Below, piece after piece: positions 3,310 through 17,122 of a stretch of 35,126 nucleotides of DNA. The position numbers and the translations under genes are program-made. This DNA is from an uncultured Synechococcaceae cyanobacterium (GTDB taxonomy: Bacteria; Cyanobacteriota; Cyanobacteriia; PCC-6307; Cyanobiaceae), in assembly GCA_902573335.1 (NCBI GenBank), contig CACGJI010000005.1, positions 1 through 35,126 of the forward strand. Reading direction: 5' to 3'. Every line of letters starts with the position of its first letter. Within the stretch, counting starts at the first letter, position 1. The notes below the pieces were generated by a model. That model searched no databases, had not been told where the DNA came from, and saw only the letters and a list, made by a program, of their open reading frames with translations.

Positions 3310-3519
3310 ATGACTAATTCTTCATACATAACTACAGAATCAGGTGGAAGGCAGAATATTTTTCCAACTGAACCTCGTCCTTATGTTGATCAATCTGTTT
3401 CTTACGATGGATATCCTCAAAACGCAGAAAAAGTTAATGGTCGATGGGCAATGATCGGTTTAGTTGCACTTTTGGGAGCTTATGCAACTACAGGCCAAAT
3501 AATTCCAGGTATTTTTTAA
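3310..3519 (+). CDS. hli: high-light-inducible protein
   Basis: EKVNGRWAMIGLVALLGAYATTGQIIPGIF. Confidence 0.92.
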   Translation: MTNSSYITTESGGRQNIFPTEPRPYVDQSVSYDGYPQNAEKVNGRWAMIGLVALLGAYATTGQIIPGIF

Positions 3520-3779
3520 TGTCTCCTCTTTCAGGTTTTTTTGCTGTAATCGTATTCTTCACAGCTATACTCGTTGCTTATCTAACCAAGCAATTTCAAA
3601 ACGAAAATTTAAACTATCTAATTTCAAATCCAATGACAAATTCAAACCCTAAAGTAAAAACAATCGAAAAAGAAAAAGTTGTTGCAGAAACTCTCAATGG
3701 CAGATTCGCAATGCTTGGATTAATTGCTGCTGTCGGAGCTTACTTAACAACAGGCCAAATAATACCAGGTTTTGTCTAA
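3519..3779 (+). CDS. hli: high-light-inducible protein with an extra N-terminal TM segment
   Basis: MSPLSGFFAVIVFFTAILVAYL...AETLNGRFAMLGLIAAVGAYLTTGQIIPGFV; start overlaps the previous stop (TAATG). Confidence 0.88.
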   Translation: MSPLSGFFAVIVFFTAILVAYLTKQFQNENLNYLISNPMTNSNPKVKTIEKEKVVAETLNGRFAMLGLIAAVGAYLTTGQIIPGFV

Positions 3780-4490: not shown

Positions 4491-5177
4491 TTAAGCAACC
4501 CTAAATTCCCGTTTCATATTCATTTCAGGCAGGTCATTCATTGAGTCTCTCCATTCCTGGGCCCACTCACTTTGACTATGTTTATAAATTCTAATTAGTT
4601 CATCTACAGAGGAATCATGATAATCAACTCTAAGGTCTAAAAGGGGAAAGCCTAGTTCTCCACTAACTTTTAGAGCGCTTGAGGTTGAACGGAGGCTTCG
4701 TTTATCTCCACCTACACTTTCTCCCGAATTCAGAGCATCAAGTAGTCTTTTCCCTAATTTAATATTTGGATCACTTTGTTTGAAGACATCAGCCATCACC
4801 TCAAGAACTTCAATATTCTCTAGAAAATTGCCAGCTACAGAAAAGTTTTCTCCACTAATATGTCCGCTTGTCTGAAAACATTCTTGACCTGTCCAGCATG
4901 CGCTTCTCCCATACTTATCAATTAAGTGAACCTGTCTTTTTTCCCTGCCAAAATCTTCTTTAATTAAATCTTCCAAAACAATTTTCGAATCAGAGCAAGA
5001 TTGGAGTGACTCAAGACTTCTTATTCCTAAATAAGGATTAGTTTGCCCTTGAGTTGCAACAGCACCAACCTGTGATCTAACAAATGAAACTGTTGAGCCA
5101 ACAGCTATATGGCAAGAAGAAACTGCCACACCAAATCTATTTTTTAAAGGATCAAAACCAATGATTGAAAATGTCAT
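4491..5177 (-). CDS. DUF1028 protein (predicted Ntn-hydrolase-like)
   Basis: MTFSIIGFDPLKNRFGVAVSSCHIAVGSTVSFVRSQVGAVATQ and GESVGGDKRSLRSTSSAL...PLLDLRVDYH signatures. Confidence 0.88.
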   Translation of the reverse strand: MTFSIIGFDPLKNRFGVAVSSCHIAVGSTVSFVRSQVGAVATQGQTNPYLGIRSLESLQSCSDSKIVLEDLIKEDFGREKRQVHLIDKYGRSACWTGQECFQTSGHISGENFSVAGNFLENIEVLEVMADVFKQSDPNIKLGKRLLDALNSGESVGGDKRSLRSTSSALKVSGELGFPLLDLRVDYHDSSVDELIRIYKHSQSEWAQEWRDSMNDLPEMNMKREFRVA

Positions 5178-6455
5178 TTATATCATTAGAGGCTTGTCTA
5201 AAAAATTCTTATCAATGGAAAATATTGTATTTAATAAAACCTCAATACCATTAGCACATTGATCAAGAGAAGTATATTCCTTATAGGAATGACTCAGACC
5301 ATTTCTGCTTGGGACAAAGATCATAACCATAGGACAGATCCTTCCTATTTCTTGTGAGTCATGACTTGCTTTGCTTGGTAAGATTCCAGTTTTAAATCCC
5401 AACTTTTCAGATTCATGAAATGAAGAGCTCACTAATTTAGGACATGACTTAGTGGGGATCACTTCAAATTGAGGTTCTATCTGTACTACGCATCCAGTAC
5501 CTTCTTGAATTTCTGAGCATAGATTCTCAATTCTTAAGCTCATTTTCCCAATCACATCTTCATCCAAATCTCGCATATCTATTGTGAATACTGCCTCTCC
5601 TGGAATAACATTTGCCGCATTGGGATGTAATTTCAATTTACCAACAGTTGCGACTGCACTTTCAGAAGTAGTTTTAGCTATCTGTTCAATGCCAACAATA
5701 ATTTTAGAGGCGGCCAAAAGTGCGTCATTTCTATTTGACATCGGGGTAGTTCCTGCATGATTTGCCTGACCTTTAACCCTAACGGTTATTCTTTTTTGAC
5801 CTACTATTCCATTAACAATTCCGATATCCAAACCACCATCCTCAAGTACCTTTCCCTGTTCAACATGTAATTCAAGAAAAGCGAATATATCTTTTTTACT
5901 TCTTGCCGCACTTTTAATCTCAAGCCAATTTCCACCAATCCGAGAAAGATTATCAATTATTGAGCAAGAATTACTGGTAACAAAATCTTCTTCTTTAACA
6001 GATAAATTACCTGTAAAGCCTTTACAACCAATCATTGTCGATTCTTCATCAGCAAAGACAATTATTTCAAATGGTCTATTTAATTTAATGTCATTTTCCT
6101 GAAGAAAAAAAGCAATTTCAATTCCTGCAATCACTCCTAAAGTTCCGTCATACTTACCTCCCTTTGGAACAGTGTCGAGATGAGATCCGGTAACAATGGG
6201 AGGTAGATTATTATCATGCCCATTTAATCTTGCAATAATATTTCCTGCAGTATCAATTCTTATTTTCAAACCTAATTCCTTAAGGGTTTTCATAAAAAAA
6301 TTTCTTGCATATATATCTTCATCAGAAAAACCTCTTCTTGAAACAGAACCATTCTCAGAAGCTCCGATTGAAGAAAAAGAATTTATCAAGTCTTGGATTC
6401 TCTCCCTATTAATTACCTGTGGCTCTAGGATATTTAATCCAGCGCTATAACTCAT
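5178..6455 (-). CDS. M20-family Zn-dependent amidohydrolase (N-carbamoyl-L-amino-acid / allantoate hydrolase type)
   Basis: GSHLDTVPKGGKYDGTLGV, DEESTMIGCKGFTGN, LELHVEQGKVLE, GQANHAGTTPM, VPSRNGLSHS. Confidence 0.9.
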   Translation of the reverse strand: MSYSAGLNILEPQVINRERIQDLINSFSSIGASENGSVSRRGFSDEDIYARNFFMKTLKELGLKIRIDTAGNIIARLNGHDNNLPPIVTGSHLDTVPKGGKYDGTLGVIAGIEIAFFLQENDIKLNRPFEIIVFADEESTMIGCKGFTGNLSVKEEDFVTSNSCSIIDNLSRIGGNWLEIKSAARSKKDIFAFLELHVEQGKVLEDGGLDIGIVNGIVGQKRITVRVKGQANHAGTTPMSNRNDALLAASKIIVGIEQIAKTTSESAVATVGKLKLHPNAANVIPGEAVFTIDMRDLDEDVIGKMSLRIENLCSEIQEGTGCVVQIEPQFEVIPTKSCPKLVSSSFHESEKLGFKTGILPSKASHDSQEIGRICPMVMIFVPSRNGLSHSYKEYTSLDQCANGIEVLLNTIFSIDKNFLDKPLMI

Positions 6456-6549
6456 ACTTCTATTACTTAAACCTATTTAACGTCTCTTATTTTTCAAATA
6501 AAACCTGTATTGGTTTACACCTTTTCAGAAATTAATTTAAGAAACGAAT

Positions 6550-8563
6550 TCAAACTTTCCAGCCCAAATTATCAGCCATCTTTTGAGCCTTATCAGGGAT
6601 ATCCTCAATTATAAAAATCTTATATAAGATCTGAACGCTTAAAAGATGATTGATTATTGCATCCAATTGTACTTTTTCTGAGGCATCAAGCTCTGAACTA
6701 AAAAATTTATTCAGCAAATCATTTACTTCTGTTTCATCCAAAATTCCAAATTCTCTTATCCTCTCAGGACTTAAAAAATCATTCACAATTTCCTGCATAG
6801 AACTTAAATTATCTTTATCTGCATGGGAAGGGGGAGCCATGAAAGGAAATTTTTCACGTTTATATAGTGATTCAGGCAGCAATCCTGACATGGCTTCTCT
6901 TAAAACATACTTCTCGACATTGTCTTTAATCCTTAATTCAGGGGGGACAGCAACGGCAGCTTCAGCTAGGTGATGATCTAAAAATGCAGGTCTGGCTTCC
7001 ATTGAATTTGACATATCCACTCTATCTCCACCCCATGTGAGAATTTGGCCCTCAAGCATAGTCTTCATCCAAACATACTGAGCCTGATCAATTGCGTATC
7101 TATTTTCTAACTGTTCAAGATCAAGTTCTCCAAAAATTGCCGCCCCGGGATCATAAGTTTCCGTTATCTCTTTATATTTACTTGAGACTAGACTTTTCGC
7201 ATAAGTTTCACATGCAAGCCAAGGTTGAAGGCAACTTGGCGTGAATCCTAAAAATTCCTTGAAAGATTTATTACTTATCTCTTCATTAGCTAGCATCGCG
7301 CCCTTGAAAATATCATTTGAATTTTCCAGATTTTCTTTAAGATTCTCAGATTCTGAATTAGAAATTCCGACCCCCATAGGTATACATATCTTTTCTAAAA
7401 GCGGGATAGCCTCCAAACAATTCATCTGAGCCCTCTCCTGTCATAACGACCTTATAATCGAGCTCATTCACTCTTTTACTCATAAGGTACTTTGCAATTG
7501 CAAGGGTGTTATAAATAGATCTTTCAGTAAACCATAGAACCTTTTCAAAATTCCCATACAGATCATCTCCATTTATTTTTAAAATCTCATGATCTGCATT
7601 GGTGGCGACAGCCATCTCTTTTGCTATCGAAGTTTCATCATATCTTTCATCACTGAAACCAATCGTGAATGCCTTTACTGATTTTTGACTTATGGCAGAA
7701 GCCAATCCCAAAATTGAGCAACTATCAATTCCACCGGACAAATAACAGCCGACAGGAACATCAGCGACCATTCTTAATTCAACTGCTCTCAACAATTCTT
7801 TTCTAATATTTTCAATAAAATATTTTTCACTTTTATTTCTTTCATAAGTGTTTTTCTTAGGGAAATTTATATCCCAGAATTTTTCCTCTGTTATCTGAAA
7901 TTTATTATTTACTCTTTTGACCTTAAGGATATATCCGGGTTTAACTTGTTTAACACCGGCGAATGCTGTAGAGCCAGGTACCATTATCTGCATCAATTGA
8001 TGAACCAGTCCTTCACCCGTAAATTTTCTTTCAACTGATGGATGGGCGAATAATACTTTTAATTCAGAGCCAAATATTAAGGAATCATCGGTCTCAATCC
8101 AATATTGAGGTTTAATCCCAAAACGATCTCTTACAAGATAAAGACAATCCTGTTCTGCATCAAACAATGAAAAGGCAAATTCTCCTCGCAGATAAGATAA
8201 TGATTCATCAATGCCATATTTCTCATAAAGCCTAAGCAATATTTCCGAATCGCTTTTTGAAGAAAAACTTACCCCCTGTGCAACAAGATCAGCCCTGATT
8301 CTCTGAAAGTCATAAAATTCACCATTATGCGCCATCAGAATATGATTTTCGGCACCACCCACAAAAGGCTGTTTTGCTCGATTTTCATTTAAATCTATTA
8401 TTGATAATCTCGCATGACAGAATCCTACAGAGGCATCATCTGATAATTTATATCCAAAACCGTCAGGTCCACGATGGCTCTGAATAGCCGCCATATTTAC
8501 AAGAATCTGAGGTTCAACAGATTTATCTTTTGATTTATTAAAAACCCCGCCTATTCCACACAT
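6550..8563 (-). pseudogene. asnB: glutamine-dependent asparagine synthetase, split by a frameshift at ~7371-7375
   Basis: ORF 7358-8563 has MCGIGGVFN (Ntn Cys2) and YLSGGIDSCSIL (PP-loop). ORF 6550-7425 supplies the C-terminal synthetase domain in another frame. They join at a CCCCC run. Confidence 0.85.
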
Positions 8564-8567
8564 CTAG

Positions 8568-9680
8568 TTAAACGACATCCATCACTCTTGTTGTTCTATC
8601 CATCAGACAGGTAAGTAATGCCATTCTTACAAATACCGCTCCTCTTGACTGAGCAAAATACCAATTTTTTGAGGTCTGATCCAATGATGTTGACAATTCT
8701 GGACCACGAGCAAGTGGATGCAATATTATGGAATCTTTTTTAAATGGCAACTCACTGTGCAATTTAAATGAACTTCCATGAACCTCATAATTTTCTCCCA
8801 CCCATGCAATTGCATTTATATAGGTAACATCCAGAGAAGGCAATACTTTTTGCATATCCGTCTCCAGCTCAATCTTCAGATCAGATTCAATAAGTTGTTC
8901 AAGCTGGCCTTCATCAAATAAATCGCTCTGATCAATTGATTTGTCATCGTAAATGACAATAATTTTTTTTATGAAATATGGAAACTTGCAGAATAATTTC
9001 AGAAGAGATCTGACTGTTCTCATACGTGATGGAACTCCGATGATACCAATGGTTATTTTTTCACTATCATCAATTGATTTGTTAACCAGATGCGGTCTCC
9101 ATTTAAAAATCGTATAAAGATCAGACATCGCCTGAGTGGGATGTTCATCGATTCCGTTACCGGCATTGATTATTGGAATTCTCAATGATTTTGTCATTTC
9201 AAAGATCGCCTCATTGTCACTTTCTCTGAGGACAACGCAGTCACCGTAATTATTAAACATATGAGCAATATCCAGATGGGTTTCTCCTTTGGCAATTCCA
9301 GTGGAACTTTTATCGGTGATATTTATTGAATCGCCGCCCAGCCTGTGCCATGCGCTATCAAACGATAACCTTGTTCTGGTGCTTGGTTCATAGAAGGCAT
9401 TTATTAGTATCTTTCCCTTTAGGGGACTGTTATGGGAAATATATCTGTTTGGGTTACTTTCGAATTTTGCCGCCAGCCTGAAAAGTTGTAGAAGACAATC
9501 TTTACTGAAGGGGTCTATGGAAATTACGTGCCTGTCCAATAACTCATATAGAAATTCCGCTCTTTCCTTTATTTCAGATAATAAATTCTGAGGATGAGTG
9601 GAGCCGTAAATATCAGGTCCTATTCTTGAAAAAGAATATGATTTTTCCTTATGTGAGGTTTTTACTGTGTATGATCCCAA
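8568..9680 (-). CDS. aspartate/ornithine carbamoyltransferase superfamily protein, PyrB-like paralog
   Basis: EPSTRTRLSFDSAWHRLGG, KGETHLD, NAGNGIDEHPTQAMSDLYTIF, HPLARGPELS; N-terminal extension. Confidence 0.88.
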   Translation of the reverse strand: MGSYTVKTSHKEKSYSFSRIGPDIYGSTHPQNLLSEIKERAEFLYELLDRHVISIDPFSKDCLLQLFRLAAKFESNPNRYISHNSPLKGKILINAFYEPSTRTRLSFDSAWHRLGGDSINITDKSSTGIAKGETHLDIAHMFNNYGDCVVLRESDNEAIFEMTKSLRIPIINAGNGIDEHPTQAMSDLYTIFKWRPHLVNKSIDDSEKITIGIIGVPSRMRTVRSLLKLFCKFPYFIKKIIVIYDDKSIDQSDLFDEGQLEQLIESDLKIELETDMQKVLPSLDVTYINAIAWVGENYEVHGSSFKLHSELPFKKDSIILHPLARGPELSTSLDQTSKNWYFAQSRGAVFVRMALLTCLMDRTTRVMDVV

Positions 9681-9898
9681 AATATTAAAGTTCTAAAATT
9701 TGTACCGATAACTACATTTTTATAAACAAAAATCAATAAAGACAAGTAATTTCAAAGAAAAATCTCAGAAAAAGTCTAATCATTATCAATTTCTGTATAG
9801 AACTAATACAGGAAATATTTAATTCGGCTCAGAATTTAACAGCACGAACAATCACTTTCAGATTCAGGATGAGAAGATTCCAGGGCATCTGCAATATC

Positions 9899-10263: not shown

Positions 10264-10273
10264 CTTTAAAATT

Positions 10274-10345
10274 GCCCTTGTAGCTCAGCGGTTGAGCACT
10301 CCCTTGGTAAGGGAGAGGCCCCGAGTTCAATTCTCGGCGAGGGCA
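10274..10345 (+). tRNA. tRNA-Thr (GGT), copy 2, attL-like boundary of the integrated element
   Basis: Full cloverleaf. T-stem is CCGAG/CTCGG, a coherent stem that differs from copy 1 (TCGGG/CCCGA). Confidence 0.9.
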
Positions 10346-10403
10346 TAGCCCAAGCCCAGTTACCGCAAGGCTTTAGAAAGAATCAAGAATAAATCATAAA
10401 TAG

Positions 10404-10484: not shown

Positions 10485-11834
10485 ATGGCTAGCAGTAACA
10501 GAGTTTCATGGGAGAAAAGACTAAGAGATACAATCCGCTCTAATTATGGCCAAGGTTGGCGTGTAATAGGCGAAGATTCTGGTCGGACTAAATTAACCTA
10601 TGAATATCCAACAGATGGCAAGAAGTCCTCTAGCACCCTCTCCATAGAATGGAAGGCTACAAACGGATTACAGATATTAAAAGCTATTGAATTTATAAAG
10701 CCATTGGTGATAAATCAAAATTTATCTCTTAAAGAATCCGCTCGAAGATGGAAAGCCCAATTTGTTGGAGATGAAACTAAAACTCCTAATAAAGCATGGA
10801 AAGATTTTCTAATAATTCCTCCAAAATTTTCCTATAAAAAGAAAGAATATGAAAAAGCCTATAAAGAATATGAGGCTGAATTAAAGGCAACAACTGTCGA
10901 TCAATTTATGCAAACCAAACAAGGTTTAACGAGTAAAACTGAAAAAGATTGGCATACAAGAATTAGAAAATTTCTTGAATTAATTAATAAAAGAAATGCA
11001 CCAAAAACGGGAGAAGAGTTAATAAAAGATTTAGCTAGAGATATGGGAGATATAGAGCCAGATCAAAAGAAAAGATATTTAAATGGTTGGTGCGACATTC
11101 TAAATTATGGAATCGAAAGACATTCAATGTCTAAAAGATGGACTCCACCAGATGCAAAAATCATCAAAGAATTAAGAGGTACTTCTACAAGAACTAGAAA
11201 ACAAAAATTAACTCCTTATGTAGAAGAGCATGATTTATTTAAATTATTAGATCATCTCGAAGGAAGTGACCCTTCAATGTTTTTGGCTACTGGTTTAATA
11301 TCTATTTTTGGTTTAAGACTTTCTGAATTAGCTGCACTTCATATCATTGAAAATAAATTGTATGTTGGCCAAATTAAAAACAACGTAAATACCTCTATTA
11401 AAAATAATGATTTAAGAAGAGCTTTTGCAATGGATTTAATAGAGAAACCTAATCTCGGAAATAAATTAATTAAGTTGTATAAATCAGGATTAGTTAAATT
11501 ACCTGCAAGAGTTTTAAAGCAAATAGATTTAGTTGAGGAGAAAAGAAAATTTGGAGATGTTGGAGATGCCTTTAGAAAACTTCTATTAAAAGACAAAGTA
11601 TGGCAAGAAATAGAACAGACAAAAGGTAACGAAGATATAACTCCCTATTCGTTACGTCATAGATTCGCCCATCAATGTCATAAAGGTTCAGCCAATCCAA
11701 TAAGTATTAAAGATGCTGCCGAAGCTATGGGTCATAACACCGATACTCACATGGATTCCTATGGTTCATATACAACTGAATTAGCTATTGAAAAGGCATT
11801 TGAAAGACACGCTAAAAATAGGATTGAAGCATGA
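10485..11834 (+). CDS. int: tyrosine recombinase / integrase
   Basis: C-terminal ITPYSLRHRFAHQ...DAAEAMGHNTDTHMDSYGSY (R-H-x-x-R...H...Y pattern); adjacent to tRNA-Thr. Confidence 0.93.
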   Translation: MASSNRVSWEKRLRDTIRSNYGQGWRVIGEDSGRTKLTYEYPTDGKKSSSTLSIEWKATNGLQILKAIEFIKPLVINQNLSLKESARRWKAQFVGDETKTPNKAWKDFLIIPPKFSYKKKEYEKAYKEYEAELKATTVDQFMQTKQGLTSKTEKDWHTRIRKFLELINKRNAPKTGEELIKDLARDMGDIEPDQKKRYLNGWCDILNYGIERHSMSKRWTPPDAKIIKELRGTSTRTRKQKLTPYVEEHDLFKLLDHLEGSDPSMFLATGLISIFGLRLSELAALHIIENKLYVGQIKNNVNTSIKNNDLRRAFAMDLIEKPNLGNKLIKLYKSGLVKLPARVLKQIDLVEEKRKFGDVGDAFRKLLLKDKVWQEIEQTKGNEDITPYSLRHRFAHQCHKGSANPISIKDAAEAMGHNTDTHMDSYGSYTTELAIEKAFERHAKNRIEA

Positions 11835-12753: not shown

Positions 12754-13472
12754 TGCCAAAAGCTACTCACAACCTGTCCCTAGGAGAGGGAAACTATTTT
12801 AGTGGCAAAAGGCCTGCCAATACTAAAAATCACTCTTCTAAAAGCCCCTCATTAGAGCCTAGATTAGAGCGTACTGGTCGATTTATCCGATCGAGTAGGA
12901 AGAATCCCTGCCCTATTTGTGACCGATCAAAAGACGATAAGTGTGCTTGGAATAGTGAAGTAATCCATTGCTATAACGGCAGTTCTAACTATCCTCCCCA
13001 AAATTTAAAACTTGGCGAAGTAGTAGAGCTAGACATACCTTGGGCATTGGTCAAAAAAAATGCGGGATTTTCTGGAAATCATTGGATTTTTATTCCTGAT
13101 AAACCAATCGGAAATGCCAAGCCATTAATCAAAAAGCATATTCCCAAAGTATCTATTCCCAGACTCAATAAATTGTTCAATGTTGTTTACGACAATGTAC
13201 AAGAGGCCCTAAAACCTGAATTAAGTTTTCTGAACTTGCAACAGTTGGAGGCGGTATCTGTAAAAACTACTGAGGCATTAGCTGAGACAAAAACTATCTT
13301 GGCAATGTCCAAACAGTTTTCGCAACAACAACTAATTAATGACATTCAATTAACCAATCTTTTTGAATGTACAAAAACTTACTATCGCCAATTATCCAAT
13401 CGGGCTGAACAGATTAAACAATTCAGAGTTGATTTCTTGGGAGAGATGGAGGTGCGAGATGACCACATCTAA
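12753..13472 (+). CDS. primase-type zinc-finger protein
   Basis: NPCPICDRSKDDKCAWNSEVIHCYNG (C-x2-C...C...C spacing as in primase CHC2/Zn modules); overlaps both neighbours. Confidence 0.6.
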   Translation: MPKATHNLSLGEGNYFSGKRPANTKNHSSKSPSLEPRLERTGRFIRSSRKNPCPICDRSKDDKCAWNSEVIHCYNGSSNYPPQNLKLGEVVELDIPWALVKKNAGFSGNHWIFIPDKPIGNAKPLIKKHIPKVSIPRLNKLFNVVYDNVQEALKPELSFLNLQQLEAVSVKTTEALAETKTILAMSKQFSQQQLINDIQLTNLFECTKTYYRQLSNRAEQIKQFRVDFLGEMEVRDDHI

Positions 13473-14745
13473 AGCCTTTGATGATGCACTATATGGAGAT
13501 AGTTCAGATAATGAAATTACTCCTGAAGTGGTTGTAGATGAAGCTACTGGAATTATTCTTTCGGGAAGTGGTAACAAACTAATCCAAAACCATGAGGCAC
13601 TAGCTCTCATTGATGGGGTAGTAGTTTCTAATCCAAAAATGCCAAACGGAAAAGAGGTTAGATATGCTCTTGGTCATAAACCCTGTCTCAATATTAGAAC
13701 TAGGTTTATTGAGGTTGGAGATTATGAATTAACTCAAGATCAACTATCTCGTTTATATCTGCAATTAAGTAACCATAAGCAAAAATGGTCAAAGCAAATG
13801 ACCATTGATGCTGTTAATACTGTTGCTGAAATAAATGCGTATGACCCAATAGCTCTTTACTTACAAAACCTAAGTTCTAAAGATGCTTTACCTGATAAAG
13901 ATTGGTTTAATTTAGATCAATTTTTATTTAATTTAGATGACCCAATAGCTCGGGCATTTATGCCTCGTTATCTTGTAGCTGCTGTCAAAAGAGCTATCGA
14001 ACCCGCCTGCCAAAATAGGCAAATCCCTGTCTTAATTGGCCCTCAGAATATTGGAAAAACTGAGCTAGGTCGATCGTTATTTGGCAAATATTATGGAGGA
14101 GGTATATCGACAAAATTCGATATAGATGACATTACTAAACTCGAAAGGCTTTGGTGTTGTGAACTGGCCGAGCTAGATGGAATCACTAGAAAGGGTCAAA
14201 TAGAGAGTTTTAAAACTTTCATTAGTGACTGTGAAAACTTCGATCGAAGAAAATATGGCCAAGGCATTGTCAAAATTATTCGAAGAAATGTTTTCTGGGG
14301 AACTTCCAATACTCCACCATTAAACGATTCAAGTGGTTCAACTAGATTTGTTTGCATACCAGTTCCCAAAAAAGAGTTACCTTACAAAAGGGTTGGAGAT
14401 GCCTTCGATCAAATTTGGTCGAGAGCTTATTGGGAATATAGAAGGGGTTATCAATGCTATTCGCCTAAAAAGGAAATGGACTCTATCGAGGAAAGGAACT
14501 TGGCTTTTGAATATGTTGATAGTTGGTTTGAAATAATTGAAGAGTTTGTAGAGAATACCACTCTCGAACTTATCCCAACTAAGAGAATCCATGAGCTATT
14601 GGATTTAGAACCTCGGCATTTGGGGAACCAACAATACGCCACTCGGATAAGAAAAATAATGGCCAAGTGTGGTTGGAAATATGACAGGCCGACAATAGGA
14701 GGAGAGCAGCGAAGAGGTTATATAAAAATTGATAAAAAAGGCTAA
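13459..14745 (+). CDS. VapE/VirE-like P-loop ATPase (satellite replication helicase type)
   Basis: PVLIGPQNIGKTELGRSLFG (Walker A), WCCELAELDGITRKGQIESFKTFISD, RNVFWGTSNTPPLNDSSGSTRFVCIPV; start set at the in-frame ATG 13459. Confidence 0.85.
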   Translation: MTTSKAFDDALYGDSSDNEITPEVVVDEATGIILSGSGNKLIQNHEALALIDGVVVSNPKMPNGKEVRYALGHKPCLNIRTRFIEVGDYELTQDQLSRLYLQLSNHKQKWSKQMTIDAVNTVAEINAYDPIALYLQNLSSKDALPDKDWFNLDQFLFNLDDPIARAFMPRYLVAAVKRAIEPACQNRQIPVLIGPQNIGKTELGRSLFGKYYGGGISTKFDIDDITKLERLWCCELAELDGITRKGQIESFKTFISDCENFDRRKYGQGIVKIIRRNVFWGTSNTPPLNDSSGSTRFVCIPVPKKELPYKRVGDAFDQIWSRAYWEYRRGYQCYSPKKEMDSIEERNLAFEYVDSWFEIIEEFVENTTLELIPTKRIHELLDLEPRHLGNQQYATRIRKIMAKCGWKYDRPTIGGEQRRGYIKIDKKG

Positions 14746-17075: not shown

Positions 17076-17122
17076 TCCCTTGGTAAGGGAGAGGTCTGGG
17101 GTTCAAGTCCCGACGAGGGCAC
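17076..17122 (+). repeat. displaced 3' half of tRNA-Thr (attR)
   Basis: TCCCTTGGTAAGGGAGAGGTCTGGGGTTCAAGTCCCGACGAGGGCA matches the copy-1 3' half except one C-to-G in the T-stem. Confidence 0.9.

Follow-up and report, generated by a model that had tools for sequence, protein, structure and literature searches.

A Gene Cluster Shared by Picocyanobacteria and Gammaproteobacteria as a Candidate Pathway for the Osmolyte N-Carbamoyl-Glutamine Amide

N-carbamoyl-glutamine amide (CGA) is a salt-protecting compound that has been known since 1991. A review describes its accumulation in Ectothiorhodospira marismortui (PMC1224877), and another review lists it among the minor solutes found in purple sulfur bacteria (PMC7824335). 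The formation of CGA needs one carbamoyl transfer and one alpha-amidation. The accessible text of the searchable literature that mentions CGA, which excludes subscription papers, names no CGA genes, and no report of CGA from picocyanobacteria was found in the searchable literature. A comparable system is that of N-acetylglutaminylglutamine amide (NAGGN), in which an asparagine-synthetase-type amidotransferase likewise caps a glutamine-based osmolyte and whose cluster likewise combines synthesis genes with a peptidase. In the present study, we analyzed a window (the whole stretch of DNA under study, 35,126 nucleotides) from an uncultured picocyanobacterium, probably of the Prochlorococcus type to judge from the size, GC and genes of its genome, and the analysis suggested that four adjacent genes form a carbamoyl-amino-acid-amide osmolyte pathway, most likely that of CGA. 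The cluster differs from the NAGGN system in that a carbamoyltransferase takes the place of NAGGN's own synthetase, and its amidotransferase reached 301.6 bits against the NAGGN amidotransferase model TIGR03104, under the cut-off of 570.1.

The four genes lie on the minus strand where the original prediction had placed them, and all of the families were recovered by domain and profile searches. They encode a PyrB-like carbamoyltransferase (8568-9680; PF02729 and PF00185), an asparagine-synthetase-type glutamine amidotransferase (6550-8563; GATase_7 and Asn_synthase), an M20 N-carbamoyl-L-amino-acid amidohydrolase (5178-6455) and a DUF1028 protein (4491-5177). The junctions were as tight as had been claimed: the M20 stop abuts the ATG of the DUF1028 gene (5178/5177), and a 4-base gap separates positions 8563 and 8568. 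The clustering of these genes was far beyond chance expectation. In the window, the cluster stands between two tRNA-Thr copies; in two same-genus genomes, it stands between the polA-cysS-dxr and pnt transhydrogenase genes (called by eye), and its position therefore varies within the genus.

The flanking tRNA-Thr(ggt) pair was located at 141-213 and 10273-10346, and the final 20 bases of the first copy were repeated at 17103-17122. A remnant resembling a tRNA-Tyr 3' end precedes the second tRNA-Thr and adjoins an integrase-like gene (10485-11834). Judged by their sequences, the tRNA-Thr repeats, the tRNA-Tyr remnant and the integrase-like gene appear to constitute a tRNA-targeted island structure. 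Near the integrase, a mobile-element gene encodes a VapE-like domain protein (13363-14745; PF05272, 5.3e-42), and a small ORF at 3444-3779 was judged by eye to be high-light-inducible-protein-like.

The PyrB-like protein shares its fold and its carbamoyl-phosphate site with the aspartate carbamoyltransferase PyrB. The best 50 solved matches of its predicted structure (pLDDT 80) were all ATCases, with a target TM of about 0.8. The protein nevertheless scored 186.6 bits against the PyrB model TIGR00670, under the curated cut-off of 236.95, and 86.9 bits against the ornithine carbamoyltransferase model TIGR00658, under the cut-off of 280.85. Its TTG start is uncertain, and conservation sets in near residue 25. 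We compared 34 PyrB-like proteins from both phyla in E. coli PyrB numbering. The equivalents of the carbamoyl-phosphate site residues S52-T55 (STRT), K84, R105, H134 and Q137, together with that of R167, were invariant in 34/34. In contrast to PyrB, the R229 equivalent was replaced by A in 23 of these proteins and by S in the other 11, the Q231 equivalent was A in 33 and V in one, and the next loop was shorter; we take R229 and Q231 of E. coli PyrB to be aspartate-binding residues. In the tree, the PyrB-like proteins formed a single clade (98/93) separate from PyrB and ArgF, within which the cyanobacterial members were nested as one clade (96/100).

The PyrB-like protein was found to be a third paralog beside PyrB and ArgF. 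Seven complete genomes, six of them with the PyrB-like gene, were used for the paralog test, and in each of them a canonical PyrB exceeded the TIGR00670 cut-off, which was reached neither by the PyrB-like protein (about 186-195 bits) nor by an ArgF-like protein. For the complete same-genus genomes, this ruled out the concern attached to the original prediction that the carbamoyltransferase might be the only pyrB. In the genome of the window itself, a match (C16) was tried as a second PyrB and rejected, being ArgF-like. Among the matches listed from plasmid and phage collections, none was more than 38.4% identical, and the annotated ones were ordinary carbamoyltransferases. Because complete relatives carry a separate PyrB and the R229 and Q231 equivalents are lost, we conclude that the PyrB-like gene is not PyrB. 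We propose that the protein may act as an L-glutamine (or glutamine-amide) N-alpha-carbamoyltransferase.

The amidotransferase is encoded in the window by two overlapping ORFs (7358-8563 and 6550-7425), the frame being broken by one additional G in a homopolymer. The run at 7371-7375 is GGGGG in the window vs. GGGG in two same-genus genomes (L032 and L033), where the amidotransferase is intact as one 670-aa frame. The source assembly (908,915 bases in 74 contigs) is rated 57% complete, so that the extra G could reflect either faulty assembly or a genuine lesion. The disruption of the gene in the window is a point against the CGA reading. The intact L032 copy scored 429.9 bits over the whole protein against the asparagine synthase model TIGR01536, and passing this general cut-off (267.1) is a further point against the CGA reading. 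With regard to a possible use of aspartate as acceptor, the glutaminase and PP-loop residues were retained in 30 members, but the equivalents of T321, S346 and V401 were changed to N, T and P, respectively, in 30/30. We propose that the enzyme amidates the alpha-carboxylate.

The M20 protein scored 383.9 bits against TIGR01879 (cut-off 204) and 434.3 against NF006771 (cut-off 399), and its best solved relative was an N-carbamoyl-L-amino acid hydrolase (3n5f, 2.2e-74). It is a putative decarbamoylase of the breakdown arm. The DUF1028 protein matched PF06267 over its full length (4.8e-58; 196.6 bits vs. a gathering score of 26.2) and had 2imh as a relative. In the searchable literature, which excludes subscription papers, no paper linking DUF1028 to Synechococcus or to amidohydrolase was found. 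The DUF1028 gene was present in 20/20 cyanobacterial and 0/20 gammaproteobacterial loci, and a gene for an isochorismatase-family hydrolase was present in 0/20 and 20/20, respectively. By this distribution, a single slot in the cluster is filled by two unrelated hydrolases, and we propose DUF1028 as the candidate CGA amidase of the breakdown arm. The gammaproteobacterial enzyme in this slot belongs to the same family as biuret amidohydrolase and other isochorismatase-family amidases; however, its score against NF050097 (81.4 bits) was far under the biuret-hydrolase cut-off of 370.

The original prediction had called for the gene order to be sought in other genomes, and it was found there. The cluster is common to the window, marine Synechococcus and halophilic purple bacteria. 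A sample of 300 genomes from the cyanobacterial family yielded the PyrB-like gene in 55, only three of which belonged to the same genus (own genome counted). In a phylum-wide sample (n = 340, E <= 1e-60), it was confined to that one family. Among the 20 picocyanobacterial loci examined, all contained the four genes, 16 had them in the order of the window, and 4 had the DUF1028 gene inverted between the AsnB and M20 genes. A sodium:solute symporter gene stood ahead of the cluster in 18/20; the two loci without it were those of same-genus genomes, which speaks against the CGA reading. In one Synechococcus-type genome, acetolactate synthase AlsS and acetolactate decarboxylase genes were noted a few kb from the cluster (L034:14029-16591).

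Related clusters were found in gammaproteobacteria, where 20/20 loci contained the PyrB-like, M20 and isochorismatase-family hydrolase genes. AsnB was present in 19/20, the remaining contig (L183) ending within the PyrB-like gene before the AsnB position, and the symporter was present in 16/20. Close symporter relatives (69%) were found away from the cluster in 4/4 tested genomes of one halophile family (G937, G988, G721 and G987). In 16/20 loci (e.g., L182:546-1058), M20 is preceded by a conserved protein without a Pfam match, about 170 aa in length. The PyrB-like gene was carried by 41/47 genomes of that halophile family vs. 21/369 in a class-wide sample, with which the family set overlaps. 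We also searched 22 halophile genomes, the named ones coming from a scan with a glycine-methyltransferase alignment. The gene was detected in Thiohalophilus thiocyanatoxydans DSM 16326 and one gammaproteobacterial MAG, and it was not found in the named Halorhodospira and Halochromatium genomes among the 22. The sequences themselves show the gene families, the conservation of the cluster in two phyla, an active site altered in the PyrB-like proteins, the exchange of hydrolases and the occurrence of the cluster in a genome, described next, that matches E. marismortui.

The cluster was further linked to a CGA producer through one purple phototroph genome. The published genome of E. marismortui DSM 4180 comprises 35 contigs, 2,624,954 bp and 68.2% GC (PMC8877833), and GMT plus GMT-B are reported for this strain (PMC7824335). 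The genome G937, which carries the cluster, has 35 contigs, 2.6 Mb, two glycine methyltransferases and reaction-centre genes. Its GC content was 68.5% over the 18-kb cluster region and stood at 62-63% where the reaction-centre genes and one of the methyltransferase genes lie. Its relative G721 (2.0 Mb) also has photosynthetic reaction-centre genes, and no glycine methyltransferase of the kind seen in G937 was found in it. From the assembly statistics and gene content, there is a strong inference that G937 is E. marismortui DSM 4180, and the presence of the cluster in a CGA-producing species follows with the same strength. A point against the CGA reading is that the accessible literature describes CGA mainly from E. 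marismortui, yet the cluster is nearly universal in that family.

The genomic surroundings were then considered. In one picocyanobacterial locus (L042, from a Synechococcus-type genome), the symporter and the cluster are immediately preceded by genes for parts of an OpuA-type transporter (an OpuAC-domain protein, an ABC ATPase), for a glycine/sarcosine methyltransferase that exceeded its cut-off and for a sarcosine/dimethylglycine methyltransferase-like protein that scored under its own. In two other genomes (G115 and G275), the methyltransferase gene was likewise placed some 3 kb away from the PyrB-like gene, as judged by distance, the neighbourhood itself having been read in L042. An MscS-type channel gene was found near the cluster in 2/20 gammaproteobacterial loci, identified in L167 and represented by a 61.5% relative in L172. 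The small number of loci with such a channel or with the glycine-betaine neighbourhood is a point against the CGA reading. Mutual exclusion with glycine-betaine synthesis was rejected: among 300 genomes, 55 had the PyrB-like gene, 33 had GMT and 16 had both, which was more than expected by chance, not less, in a count uncorrected for phylogeny. Osmoprotection is favoured because the hosts include a halophile family, a glycine-betaine locus adjoins the cluster in one picocyanobacterium, and mechanosensitive channels occur in two gammaproteobacteria.

We consider it likely, judging from the genes and their partners, that the cluster makes and recycles CGA, and our inferred scheme for its chemistry, substrate and physiological role is as follows. 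The PyrB-like enzyme would use carbamoyl phosphate to carbamoylate L-glutamine at its alpha-amino group. The asparagine-synthetase-type enzyme would activate the alpha-carboxylate with ATP and amidate it with glutamine-derived ammonia, giving CGA; either carbamoylation or amidation could come first. The dedicated sodium:solute symporter, where present, would serve for the uptake or retrieval of CGA. Once salt stress is over, DUF1028 in cyanobacteria or the isochorismatase-family amidase in gammaproteobacteria would remove the amide, and M20 would then take off the carbamoyl group, yielding glutamine, CO2 and ammonia. It counts against the CGA reading that synthesis and breakdown genes are adjacent, so that regulation would be required.

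As originally predicted, the cluster would form and turn over an N-carbamoyl (ureido) compound and serve neither pyrimidine nor arginine formation, and this was supported by the conserved cluster and the separate canonical PyrB. The acceptor could differ from glutamine, since the sequences establish an amidotransferase and a carbamoyltransferase for a substrate other than aspartate and leave the acceptor free. The same make-and-break scheme might then act on another neutral acceptor, giving, e.g., N-carbamoyl-asparagine amide as a solute or signal. However, CGA is the one natural product found with exactly both modifications, and the genome matching its producer's type strain has the cluster; we regard another acceptor as unlikely, with a small but appreciable chance. 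Spare housekeeping copies making asparagine and carbamoyl-aspartate would agree with the family-level annotation as asparagine synthase and aspartate/ornithine carbamoyltransferase. This is very improbable: separate PyrB and ArgF are present, the loss of the R229 and Q231 equivalents in all members contradicts it, and the proteins form a single deep clade across two phyla with fixed partners.

The original prediction had also put forward nitrogen storage or scavenging, in which the symporter would import ureido compounds, the hydrolases would free ammonia, and the synthetic genes would store surplus nitrogen. M20 enzymes of this type are carbamoylases, and a sodium:solute symporter adjoins the cluster. 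A perfect GTAN8TAC (NtcA-like) palindrome was also noted at 9702-9715, upstream of the PyrB-like gene. Control by NtcA was rejected, however, as neither near relative has a perfect copy of the palindrome and the Synechococcus loci do not retain it at that position. Several nameable neighbours are osmotic and the best hosts form a halophile family, so nitrogen supply was not supported as the main role and has a slim chance of being correct. A secondary nitrogen role is possible because breakdown would return nitrogen.

Returning to the CGA pathway, we judge the chance to be somewhat better than even, on the genomic evidence, that the cluster is the missing CGA gene set, that it was transferred horizontally between halophilic gammaproteobacteria and marine picocyanobacteria, that widespread ocean Synechococcus and some Prochlorococcus produce the solute, and that DUF1028 is its amide hydrolase. 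If this is true, genes would be assigned to an osmolyte described in 1991, and DUF1028 would gain a testable function. The stock of compounds that marine picocyanobacteria may retain and release would also gain a solute rich in nitrogen, with four N in each molecule by its structure.
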